A stretch of 61,856 nt of DNA from Luteitalea sp. Lineage in GTDB: Bacteria; Acidobacteriota; Vicinamibacteria; Vicinamibacterales; Vicinamibacteraceae. The position numbers and the translations under genes were made by a program. Shown piece after piece: positions 57,065 to 61,805 of the stretch. Position 1 is the stretch's first letter, and each line of letters opens with the position of its first letter. The stretch spans positions 1 through 61,856 of the forward strand of contig WHTT01000036.1 of the NCBI GenBank assembly GCA_009377605.1, given 5' to 3'. The notes beneath the pieces were generated by a model, which did not search any database, had not been told where the DNA came from, and saw only the letters and a list, made by a program, of their open reading frames with translations.

Positions 57065-57697
57065 ATGAAGGCCGAATCGATCGTCTTCGCCGTGGCCGGC
57101 GCCTGTTTTGGGCTGCTCGTCGGTTGGTTGCTGGGCGCTCAGTCCGCGCCGACGAGCCGTCCGGAGCCCACGGAGGCGGAGGCGAGCACGCCGGCGGCGG
57201 CCGGCGACGGTGCGGCGGCGCAAGCAGGCGCGCCGGCTCCGCTCGACCAGGCGAAGCTCGAGAAGTTGATCGCCGGCGCCGAAGCGCGTCCCAAGGATGC
57301 CGAGGTGCGCGCGGAGATAGGAAATCTGTACTTTGACGCCGAGCGCTTCGATGAAGCTGCCCGTTGGTACGAAGCGTCGCTCGAGCTCGACGCGAGCGAC
57401 CCGGACGTGACGACGGACCTCGGCGTGAGCTATTACTACACGAACCAGCCGGACCGCGCACTCTCCCAGTTTGCACAGGCACTGGAAATCAATCCGCGGC
57501 ATACGAAGACGCTTCTCAACCTCGGTATCGTTCGAGCGTTTGCGAAGCAGGACTTGAAGGGTGCGGCCGAGGCATGGCAACAGGTCGTCGCGCTGGCGCC
57601 GGACAGCCCCGAGGGGCGGGCTGCCCGGACCGCCCTCGATGCGCTTCGTTCCGCGCATCCGGAGGTTGGGGAGGAGCGCGCCCCGACATCGCCGTAA
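57065..57697 (+). CDS. Membrane-anchored TPR protein
   Basis: A 210-residue protein starting MKAESIVFAVAGACFGLLVG (ATG 57065, 22 bp after pdxJ). The N-terminal transmembrane helix (about 5-25) is followed by an Ala/Pro/Glu linker and three to four TPRs (AEVRAEIGNLYFDAERFDEA, WYEASLELDASDPDVTTDLG, QPDRALSQFAQALEINPRHT, LNLGIVRAFAKQDLKGAAEA). It resembles CcmH/NrfG-type TPR proteins but no cytochrome-maturation genes are nearby. The TPR part is probably periplasmic. Partner unknown. Confidence 0.85.
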   Translation: MKAESIVFAVAGACFGLLVGWLLGAQSAPTSRPEPTEAEASTPAAAGDGAAAQAGAPAPLDQAKLEKLIAGAEARPKDAEVRAEIGNLYFDAERFDEAARWYEASLELDASDPDVTTDLGVSYYYTNQPDRALSQFAQALEINPRHTKTLLNLGIVRAFAKQDLKGAAEAWQQVVALAPDSPEGRAARTALDALRSAHPEVGEERAPTSP

Positions 57698-57983
57698 CGA
57701 AAGGCTGGGTGTATCACTGACCGGCTGGATTCTGCGCATTCTGCTGTTGTTGCTCCTGATTCGCCTGGTGTGGCGTCTGGTGGCGAGGGTGCGGCACGCC
57801 CTGAGCCAAGGAGCGCGGAGCTCACCGACGTCGGCTGCCCTGGCCCGCGACCCGGTGTGCGGCACTCATGTCTTACCTGAGCGGGCCGTTGCACTGCAGT
57901 CCGGCGGGGAGACGAAGTACTTTTGTTCCGAGGCATGCCGTCAAGCATGGAAGAAGCACAAGAAAGTGGCCAGTGGTCAGTGA
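57639..57983 (+). CDS. Small membrane protein with Cys-containing YHS/PP0621-like domain
   Basis: Downstream of the TPR gene, a frame reads a transmembrane helix (LTGWILRILLLLLLIRLVW) and a small Cys domain DPVCGTHVLPERAV...TKYFCSEACRQAWKK, matching PP0621/YHS-like metal-binding modules (CxxH and CxxxC spacing). The family normally starts just before the helix, where no ATG, GTG or TTG exists in frame; ATG 57639 overlaps the TPR gene by 59 bp, while CTG 57720 would give an 88-residue product of expected size. The start is therefore uncertain. The stop TGA lies inside a repeat element. Confidence 0.6.
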   Translation: MRFVPRIRRLGRSAPRHRRNERLGVSLTGWILRILLLLLLIRLVWRLVARVRHALSQGARSSPTSAALARDPVCGTHVLPERAVALQSGGETKYFCSEACRQAWKKHKKVASGQ

Positions 57984-58124: not shown

Positions 58125-58997
58125 ATGTTGAGCCCTGAGGAGAAAGCCCGCGCGGAGATCGTCGAGATCGGCCACCGCCTGTGGACACGAGGCTTTGTCG
58201 CGAGCAACGACGGCAACATCAGCGTTCGTCTGGACCGCGAGCGCATCCTGACGACCCCGAAAAGTGTGTCGAAGGGATTCATGACGCCAGACATGATGGT
58301 GATGACCGATCTTGCTGGCACGAGGATCGCCGGCGAGCGGGCGCCCTCGTCCGAGCTCCTCATGCACCTGGCCGTGTACGAGCTACGGCCGGATGTACAC
58401 GCCGTCGTGCACGCGCATCCGCCAAAGGCCACCGGCTTCGCGGTCGCCGGCATTCCGCTCGACCGCGCCGTCCTCGCGGAAGTCATCACGACCCTTGGTA
58501 GCATCCCCATTGCGGAGTACGGCACACCGTCGACGCAGGAGCTGCCAGACGCGGTGCGAAGATACATCAAGGCACACGATGGCCTTCTGCTGGCCAATCA
58601 CGGAGCGCTCACGATCGGCGCGGAGCCGTTCAACGCGTACTACAAAATGGAGACAATCGAGCACTTCGCGCACATCAGTCTCGTCGCGAGGCTGTTGGGC
58701 CGCGAGCATGTGCTTTCTCGGGACGAGGTCCTCCGTCTTCAGGGCTTGCGCGGAGCGTATGGCATAGCAGCAGCGGCGCCCATCTGCATCGACTCGCCAG
58801 TGGCGGACGGCGGTGACGCCGCGGGCACCACCGACGCGGGTGAGCCCTGCCAGCGCGTGCTCGCCCCTGAGGCGCCCGGCCGGCGGCTCGTGCCAGCCGC
58901 GGGCTCGGCCGCCTTGAGCGGCGAGCGCGAAATTCGACTAACATACCGCGAGCTGGCTGCGCTCCTCGAAGATGCGGTTCGGGCGTTCACGCGATGA
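58125..58997 (+). CDS. Class II aldolase (fuculose/rhamnulose-phosphate type) of a microcompartment, with C-terminal encapsulation-like helix
   Basis: Zinc aldolase of 290 residues that probably cleaves a deoxy-ketose phosphate into dihydroxyacetone phosphate and lactaldehyde. Catalytic domain (about 1-215): GFVASNDGNISVRL, TPKSVSKGFMTPDMMV, SSELLMHLAVYELRPDVHAV, HAHPPKATGFAVAG (His94/His96 zinc ligands), LLANHGALTIG. After a Pro/Ala/Gly-rich linker (about 225-272) comes an amphipathic helix IRLTYRELAALLEDAVRAF at the extreme C-terminus, the layout of encapsulation peptides. It heads the shell-protein operon 63 bp upstream of the hexamer gene. Fuculose versus rhamnulose specificity cannot be decided. 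Confidence 0.88.
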   Translation: MLSPEEKARAEIVEIGHRLWTRGFVASNDGNISVRLDRERILTTPKSVSKGFMTPDMMVMTDLAGTRIAGERAPSSELLMHLAVYELRPDVHAVVHAHPPKATGFAVAGIPLDRAVLAEVITTLGSIPIAEYGTPSTQELPDAVRRYIKAHDGLLLANHGALTIGAEPFNAYYKMETIEHFAHISLVARLLGREHVLSRDEVLRLQGLRGAYGIAAAAPICIDSPVADGGDAAGTTDAGEPCQRVLAPEAPGRRLVPAAGSAALSGEREIRLTYRELAALLEDAVRAFTR

Positions 58998-59059: not shown

Positions 59060-59356
59060 ATGGGTGAAGCACTGGGCATGATCGAGACCAAGGGATTGGT
59101 CGCAATGATTGAGGCGGCCGATGCCATGGTCAAGGCGGCGAAGGTGACGCTGGTCGGCTGGGAGAAGATCGGCGCCGGCTACGTCACAGCCATCGTGCGT
59201 GGTGATGTTGCCGCCGTGAAGGCCGCGACCGACGCTGGCGCGGCGGCGGCCAGGCGGGTCGGCGAGCTCGTGTCGGTGCACGTCATCCCTCGTCCGCACA
59301 GCAACCTCGAGGATGTGCTGCCCATTGGCAAGGCCGCGGCGGCCTCAAGCAAGTAA
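59060..59356 (+). CDS. Microcompartment shell hexamer (BMC-H)
   Basis: A 98-residue single-BMC-domain protein forming the hexagonal shell tiles. [20 protein letters not shown] is the canonical beginning, followed by [40 protein letters not shown] and [20 protein letters not shown] with VLP. A GGAG ribosome-binding site lies 7 nt before the ATG. It is similar to EutM/PduA/CsoS1 proteins. It is the only hexamer gene in the window; others may lie beyond the right edge. Confidence 0.96.
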
Positions 59357-59431: not shown

Positions 59432-59701
59432 ATGCTCCTCGCCAGGGTTGTCGGGACCGTCGTCGCCACACGCAAAGACGAACGGCTGGTCGGCAGCAAG
59501 TTGATGGTCGTCCGACCCGTCAGCCCGGAGGGCAAGCCGGACGCGCCGACGCTCGTCGCGGTAGATACGGTGGACGCCGGCTCCGGCGAAACGGTGCTCA
59601 TCGTCACGGGCAGCTCCGCGCGGATGTCGTCGGGCCTCAAGGATTGTCCGGTCGATGCCGCCATTGTGGCCATCGTTGATACCGTCTCGGTTGGTTCTTA
59701 G
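59432..59701 (+). CDS. Microcompartment shell pentamer 1 (BMC-P, EutN/CcmL family)
   Basis: An 89-residue vertex protein: MLLARVVGTVVATRKDERLV, GSKLMVVRPVSP, TLVAVDTVDAGSGETVLIVT and DAAIVAIVDTVSV, the EutN fold pattern (G-T-V-V-A-T, K-L, V-D, G-G/A-G-E-x-V, D-x-x-I-V-x-I-V-D). The stop codon TAG lies at the edge of a repeat element that fills the gap to pentamer 2. Three pentamers in a row are typical of planctomycete-type sugar microcompartments. Confidence 0.95.
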   Translation: MLLARVVGTVVATRKDERLVGSKLMVVRPVSPEGKPDAPTLVAVDTVDAGSGETVLIVTGSSARMSSGLKDCPVDAAIVAIVDTVSVGS

Positions 59702-59806: not shown

Positions 59807-60082
59807 ATGCGACTCGCCAATGTGGTTGGGACCGTGGTCGCGACGCAGAAGGACCCGGGGCTCGCCGGGCAGAAGCTGCTCGTTATCCAGCCGCTCACAC
59901 CGGGCGGCGAGCCGAGCGGGCGGGCGCTGGTTGCGGTCGATGCCGTGGGCGCGGGCGTGGGCGAGCGCGTGTTCTACGTTCGCGGCCGAGAGGCTTCGTA
60001 TCCGTTCCTGCCCACGGAGGTTCCCGCGGATGCCGCCATCGTGGCGATCGTCGACCATACGGATGTGGTTCTTGGTGCTTAG
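59807..60082 (+). CDS. Microcompartment shell pentamer 2 (BMC-P)
   Basis: A 91-residue EutN-type vertex protein: MRLANVVGTVVATQKDPGLA, GQKLLVIQPLTPGGE, LVAVDAVGAGVGERVFYVRG and DAAIVAIVDHTDVV. It differs from pentamer 1 at the loop after the second strand (EASYPFLPTEVP). Its stop is inside the following repeat. Its ribosome-binding site (AAGGA or GAAG) is supplied by the preceding repeat's end. Confidence 0.95.
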   Translation: MRLANVVGTVVATQKDPGLAGQKLLVIQPLTPGGEPSGRALVAVDAVGAGVGERVFYVRGREASYPFLPTEVPADAAIVAIVDHTDVVLGA

Positions 60083-60174
60083 TTCTTGGTTCTTGGTGCG
60101 CTTTGGCGTACCGAAGCATCGAAGCGTACTAGGCGCACTAAGGACCAAGCACCAAGGACCAAGAACCTGAAGAG
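60083..60174. repeat. Family C element between pentamer genes 2 and 3
   Basis: Core 60095-60138 is identical over 44 bp to the core at 59714-59757, but the arms differ in unit order and number (TTCTTGG left, ACCAAGC/ACCAAGG right). It ends ACCTGAAGAG before the ATG at 60175. Confidence 0.85.
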
Positions 60175-60450
60175 ATGCAAATCGGCACCGTTGTCGGCAC
60201 CGTCGTCGCCACACAGAAACATCACAAGATCGAAGGTGCGAAGCTCTTGCTCGTGCAGGTGGAGGAGCCGGATGGCTCGCTGTGCGGCACCCCGCTGTTG
60301 GCGATCGACTCGGTTGGGGCCGGCGTTGGCGAGCGTGTACTGGTCGTGATCGAAGGGCGCGCCGCTGGTGACGCGCTCGGCCGAAAGGCGGCGCCCGTCG
60401 ACGCCGCCATTCTGGGTATCATCGATTATGTCGACGTACAGGAACGCTAG
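60175..60450 (+). CDS. Microcompartment shell pentamer 3 (BMC-P)
   Basis: A 91-residue EutN-type vertex protein: MQIGTVVGTVVATQKHHKIE, GAKLLLVQVEEPDGS, LLAIDSVGAGVGERVLVVIE and DAAILGIIDYVDV. GRAAGDALGRK in the exposed loop is specific to this copy. It is followed 51 bp later by the Cys-rich small protein, without a repeat in between. Confidence 0.95.
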   Translation: MQIGTVVGTVVATQKHHKIEGAKLLLVQVEEPDGSLCGTPLLAIDSVGAGVGERVLVVIEGRAAGDALGRKAAPVDAAILGIIDYVDVQER

Positions 60451-60501: not shown

Positions 60502-60720
60502 ATGACTGAAGACGAGCTGCGTGGGCTCGTTCGTGAGGCGATTGCGCGCCACCTCTCGGGCTCCGGTCCGCAGGTAGACGTGTCAGCAGCGCCTGTGAGA
60601 CTGCATCCGAGCCACGCCAAGCTCAGTGTGCGCCCGGGCAGCGACATCGAGGGCCCGTGTCTCATCGAGCCAACCGTTCGCTGCAATCACTGCGGTTATT
60701 GCCAATCCCTAGGACATTGA
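60502..60720 (+). CDS. Small Cys-rich protein with encapsulation-peptide-like N-terminus
   Basis: A 72-residue protein (ATG 60502; GTG 60484 would add six residues) of no recognised family. Residues 1-20, MTEDELRGLVREAIARHLSG, form an amphipathic helix with the hydrophobic spacing of microcompartment targeting peptides. A Pro/Ser linker follows, then a C-terminal metal-site-like block GPCLIEPTVRCNHCGYCQSL ending GH: Cys53, Cys61, Cys64, Cys67 and His63, His72, suggesting a [4Fe-4S] or zinc site. It overlaps the next gene (TTGA) and follows the third pentamer, so it is probably a luminal component, perhaps a redox carrier. Function is inference. Confidence 0.75.
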   Translation: MTEDELRGLVREAIARHLSGSGPQVDVSAAPVRLHPSHAKLSVRPGSDIEGPCLIEPTVRCNHCGYCQSLGH

Positions 60721-61712
60721 GCCGACCTGCCATTTTCGTCACCAAGCGTCTTCCTTCGTCTGTGCTCGATGAGCTCGCCGCGCGGGCGTCCCTCGAGGTC
60801 TGGAAGGACCCATCGGGTCCTTCGCCCGAGGAGCTTGTCGAGCAGGCGGCCTCCTGCACGGGGATCATCAGTCAACCCACGGACCGCGTCGACGCGGCGC
60901 TCCTCGACCGAGCACCGGAGCTCCGCATTGTCGCGAACGTGGCGGTGGGCTACGACAATGTGGACGTGACGGCCGCGCGGGAGCGCCGCGTGATCGTGAC
61001 CAACACACCGGACGTGCTGACCGAGTGCTGCGCGGCGTACACGTGGGGGCTGATCTTGACGGCGACGCGACGTATCGCCGAGGGCGACAGGCTGGCGCGG
61101 CGCGGCGCGTGGGAAGGTTGGGCGATTGACTTCATGCTCGGGTGCGAGATCAGTGGCCGACAGCTCGGCATCGTGGGCATGGGGCGAATCGGCCGGGCAG
61201 TCGCAGCCAAGGCTGGCTGCTTCGGCATGCGTGTCGCGTACGCGCCATCGCGAGCCAACACGGCCGACCTGCCACTCGCGCCCGACGGCACGCCCTACAC
61301 GCCGATGTCCTTGGACCAACTGCTCGTCACCTCGGACGTTGTCTCGCTGCACCTGCCGCTTCGACCGGAGACTCGTCATCTCATCGACGCCAAAGCGCTC
61401 GCGCGAATGAAGCGATCAGCCTTTCTCGTGAATATGGCGAGAGGGCCAGTCGTTGACGAGGCGGCGCTAGCCTGGGCCCTGCGCGAAGGGCTCATCTCCG
61501 GCGCAGCGCTGGACGTTTACGAGAACGAGCCGACGATCCATCCAGATCTCTTCGGGCTCGAGCAGGTCGTATTGGCGCCACACCTCGGCAGCGCCACGCG
61601 TGAGACACGAACCGCCATGGCGGACCTGGCCGTCCGAAACGTCCTCGCCGTCATCGATGGGCAATTGCCGCTCACACCCGTCCCCGGCAGCTTCGTGGGT
61701 CAAGGGATCTAG
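60717..61712 (+). CDS. D-isomer-specific 2-hydroxyacid dehydrogenase
   Basis: NAD(P)-dependent dehydrogenase of 331 residues related to glyoxylate/hydroxypyruvate reductases and D-lactate-type enzymes. TTG 60717 overlaps the stop of the Cys-rich gene, giving MSRPAIFVTKRLPSSVLDEL, the typical N-terminus. Motifs: LRIVANVAVGYDNVDVTAAR, Rossmann GIVGMGRIGRAVA, catalytic Arg in NMARGPVVDE, Glu in YENEP and His in LAPHLGSAT. In a sugar microcompartment it may recycle NADH or reduce a 2-oxoacid, but no targeting peptide is obvious. It is the last gene before the edge. Confidence 0.9.
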   Translation: MSRPAIFVTKRLPSSVLDELAARASLEVWKDPSGPSPEELVEQAASCTGIISQPTDRVDAALLDRAPELRIVANVAVGYDNVDVTAARERRVIVTNTPDVLTECCAAYTWGLILTATRRIAEGDRLARRGAWEGWAIDFMLGCEISGRQLGIVGMGRIGRAVAAKAGCFGMRVAYAPSRANTADLPLAPDGTPYTPMSLDQLLVTSDVVSLHLPLRPETRHLIDAKALARMKRSAFLVNMARGPVVDEAALAWALREGLISGAALDVYENEPTIHPDLFGLEQVVLAPHLGSATRETRTAMADLAVRNVLAVIDGQLPLTPVPGSFVGQGI

Positions 61713-61805
61713 GGGTCAAGGGATCTAGGGACCAAGGGACCAAGGGATCTAGGGATCTAGGGGGAAGGAAGGCAACGTCCCTTGCTTCGACCTTCCTACC
61801 CCTAG
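61698..61805. repeat. Family C tandem tract and hairpin at the right edge
   Basis: 61698-61762 is a run of GGGATCTAG / GGGTCAA / GGGACCAA units; then CTAGGGGGAAGGAAGG (61757-61772) pairs with CCTTCCTACCCCTAG (61791-61805) around an 18-nt loop. The stop codon of the dehydrogenase lies in the first units. The rest of the window (61806-61856) shows no gene. Confidence 0.75.

Follow-up and report, generated by a model that had tools for sequence, protein, structure and literature searches.

Towards its end the 61,856-nucleotide stretch of DNA analysed here (the window) carries a microcompartment locus with all genes on the forward (+) strand; upstream of it lie genes recognisable by eye as housekeeping genes, and the window reaches the contig end just past the dehydrogenase gene. 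The locus includes a class II aldolase (58125..58997; PF00596, E 5.1e-47) that has Cys221 and Cys242 in a linker and ends in a C-terminal encapsulation peptide (EP; about 58938-58994), as stated for the aldolases of ACI loci in the main text of Sutter et al. (2021; PMC8217296). It is followed by a BMC-H hexamer (59060..59356; PF00936, E 1.5e-30), which is also above the cut-off of the NCBIfam EutM model, and by three BMC-P pentamers matching PF03319, i.e., BMC-P 1 (59432..59701, E 2.8e-31), BMC-P 2 (59807..60082, E 2.2e-29) and BMC-P 3 (EutN/CcmL pentamer; 60175..60450, E 2.1e-27). Next come a 72-residue open reading frame with an ATG start (60502..60720), encoding an EP-helix plus Cys-tail protein that we name CysP, and a D-2-hydroxyacid dehydrogenase (HADH; 60717..61712; PF02826 and PF00389), for which the nearest NCBIfam model is glyoxylate reductase, below that model's cut-off. 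Judged from the sequence, HADH probably starts at the TTG at 60717, inside ...CATTGA; the longest HADH ORF, from a GTG at 60657, would overlap CysP by 64 nt. The placement of the small gene in the initial annotation, between the third pentamer and the dehydrogenase and overlapping the latter, is retained, the overlap being probably 4 nt. Near-identical short units, accaaggaccaag or ggatctaggg, were seen by eye in intergenic runs at about 60100-60170 and 61712-61760, where they adjoin shell genes and the 3' side of the dehydrogenase. Upstream of the aldolase an ORF at 57561-57983 has a C-terminal YHS/FCS-like Cys motif that stays below the Pfam cut-offs, and an ORF of about 80-100 aa occupies this position in many related loci. 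In two related loci, L080 and L109, HADH is directly followed by an HhH-GPD DNA repair enzyme, in L109 then by a cyclophilin.

The main text of Sutter et al. (2021; PMC8217296) gives the ACI locus as a class II aldolase with C-terminal EP, a hydroxyacid dehydrogenase, a BMC-P triplet, a BMC-H and a satellite AldDh, along with "several proteins of unknown function". The window locus is of this type: according to Pfam and NCBIfam the aldolase, HADH, the BMC-P triplet and BMC-H occur together in one locus, and in the same genome (G000) another contig (C117, locus L123) carries an AldDh (PF00171) beside a second BMC-H. An acidobacterial host is also indicated, as the nearest of 63 homologous records is titled Luteitalea sp. 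(79% identity); of the 63 titles, which can be wrong, 58 name Acidobacteria or groups thereof, four Acidimicrobiia and one Cyanobacteria. The small protein had been put forward as undescribed. This applies to the protein itself, for which a term search of the main text of PMC8217296 gave no description and a literature search covering few subscription journals gave no title or abstract opening that describes it, but not to its surroundings, as the ACI locus type was published with unnamed proteins of unknown function, and the CysP gene may be drawn, unnamed, in the supplement of that paper. New here is the tail of what would be an accessory protein of microcompartments, whereas the locus type was known.

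The CysP ORF is a real gene and not a chance ORF, because dN is far below dS in the one pair compared, the window and its nearest relative L058 (NG86 dN 0.114, dS 1.13, dN/dS ~0.1, i.e., purifying selection), and because 63 homologous loci exist. These loci were found by scanning genome contigs of all phyla with one short seed, which fixes the last nine residues and does not impose Cys53, Glu56 or Cys61; the searches by profile were made in one phylum. The product can be written MTEDELRGLVREAIARHLS...HPSH...GPCLIEPTVRCNHCGYCQSLGH, and its translation contains what had been read from it initially, namely 72 residues with Cys53, a CxxCxxC-type block (Cys61, Cys64 and Cys67) and a terminal His, preceded by Gly71. 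It has no match in Pfam, NCBIfam or PDB sequences, and viral contigs, plasmids and PDB sequences gave no relatives, with five plasmid matches at chance level (E 0.5-9). Foldseek with the AlphaFold2 model of CysP returned one match (E 9.8), which is meaningless because the pTM of the model is only 0.36.

The distribution of CysP among 396 genomes of the phylum follows that of the pentamer genes. A single-sequence search matched 41 genomes, of which G143 was judged spurious since the profile did not confirm it and the region is without a shell gene. A profile of 61 rows found CysP in 60 genomes at E <=0.01, 41 in the class of the window and 19 outside it. Also judged spurious and dropped were the G420 match (L294), a second G426 match (L297) and a second profile match in G299. 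PF03319 pentamers are encoded in 164 of the 396 genomes, including 60/60 of those with CysP and 104/336 of those without a CysP match at E <=0.01, and at least eight of the latter 104 do carry a CysP on closer reading; none of the 232 pentamer-free genomes had one by the profile search. Within the class, CysP accompanies an AldDh match of >=50% identity in 38 of 41 genomes, and it occurs in two of the 12 genomes counted that lack such a match (p 8e-7 with kinship ignored; the count covers 53 of 60 genomes and takes the G420 match as absent). Related aldolase/shell loci from several other families yielded no CysP, and a shell of the ACI kind may therefore exist without it; CysP is part of the ACI system, but perhaps not a requirement for each such shell.

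The position of the gene is equally constant. BMC-P3 is directly upstream of CysP in 60 of the 63 loci and the remaining three start at a contig edge, so that all 60 loci with upstream sequence have this arrangement. Outside the order of the window CysP lies within 1 kb after a pentamer gene in 41 of the 43 genomes read, with 191-829 nt from the pentamer end to the CysP stop; eight of these genomes were found only by inspection beside pentamers, which makes 33/35 the unbiased figure. The two others, G251 and G365, have CysP about 28 kb from a pentamer gene on the same contig. The proposal of a small protein with a targeting-type helix that is tied to microcompartments is thus supported: the homologues, rather than being mostly outside microcompartment loci, occur only with pentamer genes in the 396 genomes and in 33 of 35 cases within 1 kb of one even outside the order.

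The C-terminal block of CysP is C53-x7-C61-x2-C64-x2-C67-x3-G71-H72-COOH (60658..60717, +). Close relatives keep C-x7-C-x2-C-G-x-C-x3-G-H in 63/63 loci, with Cys53, Glu56 and Cys61 invariant although they lie outside the seed, and in an unseeded set from the order of the window the four Cys are invariant in 27/27 and the terminal His is present in 26. Another 43 genomes are more divergent. All of them have Cys53, Cys61, Cys67 and the penultimate Gly, and 42 have the Glu, a conservation that is partly selected for because these tails were found with tail profiles or patterns. This does not apply to the loss of the middle Cys. Cys64 is kept in 22 genomes, whereas the other 21 have Ser, Thr or His in its place, with an extra Cys elsewhere in three of them (25 tails with four Cys and 18 with three). 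The divergent tails end in F (24), H (11) or Y (eight). A lack of conservation of the four Cys had been named initially as refuting the proposal; they are conserved in the close relatives, but not beyond these, and because the middle Cys is absent in 21/43 the family as a whole gives no support to Cys4 binding of iron-sulphur or zinc as an obligate feature. Neither a four-Cys site nor one that requires the terminal His is general, and this His, often replaced by Phe or Tyr, is no constant ligand. A second conserved element precedes the tail in relatives, HxSH or HPSxxKF; in the window it is the HPSH motif at residues 35-38 (60604..60615, +), recognised from alignments and ORFs of relatives, with Ser37 nearly invariant.

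The N-terminal part is predicted to form an encapsulation-peptide-like helix (residues 3-19; 60508..60558, +). In an AlphaFold2 model built from the 61-row alignment residues 3-19 are helical, with a mean pLDDT of 96 over the first block of ten residues and 86 over the second, residues 21-50 appear as a linker (pLDDT 54-67), and residues 51-70 reach a pLDDT of 87 and 81. As modelled, CysP would have the terminal helix of 15-20 residues and flexible linker by which EP proteins are recognised. The helix had been called amphipathic: the helix itself is confidently predicted, but its hydrophobic moment is not above that of shuffled sequences (Eisenberg scale, the one scale used; p 0.56 for the window protein, median p 0.61 for 60 members). 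When a profile of 58 CysP helices was slid along 55 aldolases, the best window started within the last 24 residues in 48, i.e., in the region of the EP; in the aldolase of the window itself the tail is only the second-best match (p 0.06 vs. shuffles for the best window). CysP relatives in other acidobacterial families (L174, L201, L222, L181, L168 and L169) have a longer N-terminal part.

Cys columns present in >=30% of sequences were counted in the other proteins of the locus as a screen for partners of the tail. Such columns are absent from BMC-H, BMC-P2 and BMC-P3 and number one in BMC-P1 (66%), so the shell proteins were set aside as Cys partners; HADH has two (44-48%) and the aldolase two that are invariant. 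The latter two fall in the variable stretch that connects the catalytic domain to the EP. This linker contains exactly two Cys in 55/55 loci at a spacing of 10-19, corresponding to Cys221 and Cys242 in the window. Outside the order, at least two linker Cys were found in 18/31 genomes with CysP vs. 4/14 loci without it, one of which (G077) is in the order, and presence of CysP does not predict the pair (p 0.11). An earlier partial count of 17/20 vs. 4/14 (p 0.001) was dropped as incomplete when 11 more genomes, all with three-Cys tails, were added. The type of tail, by contrast, does go with the linker: at least two linker Cys were found in 15/18 genomes with a four-Cys tail and in 3/13 with a three-Cys tail (p 0.001, hand-scored and with lineages that are not independent). 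The aldolase ORFs of G411, G417 and G409 end early and were scored as having no linker Cys. There are exceptions, as G012 combines a four-Cys tail with an aldolase lacking linker Cys, and in G077 the linker pair occurs where no CysP was found. This association in sequence is a lead, not a proof, that the two proteins may share a thiol or metal site. In most f31 relatives read the aldolase linker contains CQxCGYL and one further Cys.

Several known accessory proteins offer comparisons. PduM (PF15953) is a small accessory protein that, like CysP, starts with a targeting-type helix and is encoded beside a pentamer (pduM adjoins pduN); its helix is described together with a role in joining core to shell (PMC12108088; PMC9132943), and a 2024 paper makes the case for EP binding between shell tiles (PMC11157265). 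Long CysP relatives from two genomes give a weak 42-column alignment with PduM (two vs. two sequences; hhalign probability 25%, pairwise E 7.5e-4). A C-terminal Cys block of this kind is, on the other hand, absent from both PduMs read, and PF15953 matches neither the window protein nor anything in G000 (E <=0.05). In the phylum this model matches 18/396 genomes at E <=0.05, one of them over the cut-off, with 16 of the 18 covering only the C-terminal end of the profile and none falling on a CysP ORF. CysP was therefore not taken for a PduM, the profile comparison being at most suggestive for the long relatives. PduK is another BMC protein with a Cys-rich C-terminus, a tetracysteine extension that according to a review may bind an FeS cluster, but PduK contains a BMC-H domain whereas CysP has no BMC domain and the spacing in the one PduK sequence compared is C-x2-C-x4-C-x10-C, so this identity was rejected as well. 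CcmM and CcmN have been named as carboxysome linkers. Like CsoS2 they are scaffolds that join shell and cargo, a role resembling the one proposed here for CysP. Both CcmM and CsoS2 show Cys-dependent behaviour.

It is possible, and to us the likeliest of the explanations considered, that CysP serves the ACI metabolosome as a dedicated accessory protein of the lumen, where it links core to core or core to shell and has a Cys latch closed by a metal or by disulfides. The N-terminal helix, being similar to the C-terminal EP of the aldolase, would place CysP in the enzyme core or at the inner face of the shell, and the flexible linker would present the short C-terminal Cys knuckle, which may use a structural metal or disulfides to latch a partner; the likeliest partners would be the linker Cys pair of the aldolase and/or the pentamer whose gene directly precedes that of CysP. 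CysP would then be a small linker that works like PduM without being one. A linker role is favoured because this is how linker proteins are built, with a helix for targeting, a flexible middle and a compact end. It is consistent with the confinement of CysP to genomes with pentamer genes, its place directly after BMC-P3, its co-occurrence with AldDh, the affinity of the helix profile for the aldolase EP tail, the invariant Cys pair of the aldolase linker with its preference for four-Cys tails, and the precedent of PduM, which has such a helix, is encoded beside the pentamer PduN and links core to shell. Against it stand the related aldolase/shell loci without CysP, the poor prediction of the linker pair by presence of CysP and its exceptions G012 and G077, the unremarkable helix moment, the second rank of the window's own aldolase tail, and the failure of PF15953 to match. 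A more specific form, in which the Cys tail pairs with the aldolase linker Cys so that core assembly in this catabolic microcompartment would be set by redox state or metal, independently of PduB/PduM and the carboxysome scaffolds, is doubtful.

The Cys tail also allows other readings. One, akin to the electron-carrying iron-sulfur protein of the initial annotation and in our view unlikely, makes CysP a redox relay or electron carrier inside the compartment, whose tail would bind a [4Fe-4S] cluster in a ferredoxin-like manner (CxxCGxC plus a remote Cys) and move electrons within the lumen or across the shell. The CxxCGxC is invariant in the 27 unseeded and 63 seeded relatives, and a review discusses the iron-sulphur shell proteins PduT and GrpU and the PduS electron route. 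Fer4-type Pfam models do not match the window protein and touch at most six of 61 members weakly (five by Fer4_2, best E 0.045, and one by Fer4, E 0.21). Beyond the close relatives CGxC is not kept, the middle Cys being lost in 21/43 genomes (three with an extra Cys), and among the neighbours scanned for families no flavin, Fe-S or other electron-transfer partner was recognised, the enzymes of the locus being an aldolase and a 2-hydroxyacid dehydrogenase, with AldDh on the satellite; the electron carrier first suggested would thus be without a recognised partner there. About as improbable is a zinc knuckle that is structural and serves local folding only, the tail docking on shell or enzyme. 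It would accommodate C, S, T or H at the middle ligand position, and the best PDB profile matches fall on medium-chain dehydrogenases, at IEPxVxCxxCxxC, which is their structural-zinc loop (5vm2, E 0.14 and 0.36; 1e3j, E 0.31). These E-values are not significant and a profile of the divergent tails found no such dehydrogenase in the PDB, so the resemblance was not confirmed; the zinc lobe of these enzymes is moreover C-x2-C-x2-C-x7-C within an ADH fold, whereas CysP has only 72 residues and its fourth Cys precedes the triplet. The weak Fer4_2 and zinc-loop matches do not decide between iron-sulphur and zinc.

It is more improbable still that CysP delivers or regulates a metal or cofactor, by handing zinc to the aldolase or by sensing metal or redox state. 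Class II aldolases are Zn-dependent, the locus type contains one and the tail is rich in Cys, but related aldolase loci lack CysP and it matches no described family in Pfam or NCBIfam. The least probable reading is that of an encapsulation adaptor for HADH. HADH shows no clear targeting helix (the helix profile finds nothing above shuffles, p 0.37), the two genes overlap or adjoin, and HADH lies downstream of CysP in 53/63 loci. Of the ten loci without an HADH match two are limited in what follows CysP, to 124 nt in L077 and 3.5 kb in L105, but the other eight have room and keep CysP, and their genomes, for which completeness is not given, have no HADH match of >=50% identity (best 42%); conversely, G077, in the order of the window, has HADH directly after BMC-P3 and no CysP was found there. 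Because CysP is kept in these eight loci it does not appear to be an HADH accessory. The linker with a Cys latch is therefore ranked above the electron carrier, the zinc knuckle, the metal delivery protein and the HADH adaptor.

As a linker, CysP would be one dedicated component, neither enzyme nor shell protein, of the ACI metabolosome, an organelle of soil acidobacteria for which the main text of Sutter et al. (2021; PMC8217296) gave no assigned assembly factor. The residues singled out by the comparisons are C53, C61 and C67 of CysP and C221 and C242 of the aldolase. If the tail does latch the aldolase linker, it would show how a core is organised in a metabolosome with very few shell components (the main locus has a single BMC-H and three BMC-P), and would provide a very short tag-plus-latch module for engineering.

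The satellite AldDh of G000 (L123, 162-1982 on the minus strand of contig C117) looks by its type CoA-acylating, although no PduL-type phosphotransacylase (PF06130) was matched in this genome, which is 97.5% complete. It carries, as do L254-L281, a C-terminal extension that includes an EP-like helix and closes with the segment FVCEEDVR...IVTPSARELG. This segment resembles the C-terminus of PduM (VTALARE) and also EutQ, and its Cys is a Ser in all four f89 genomes read.
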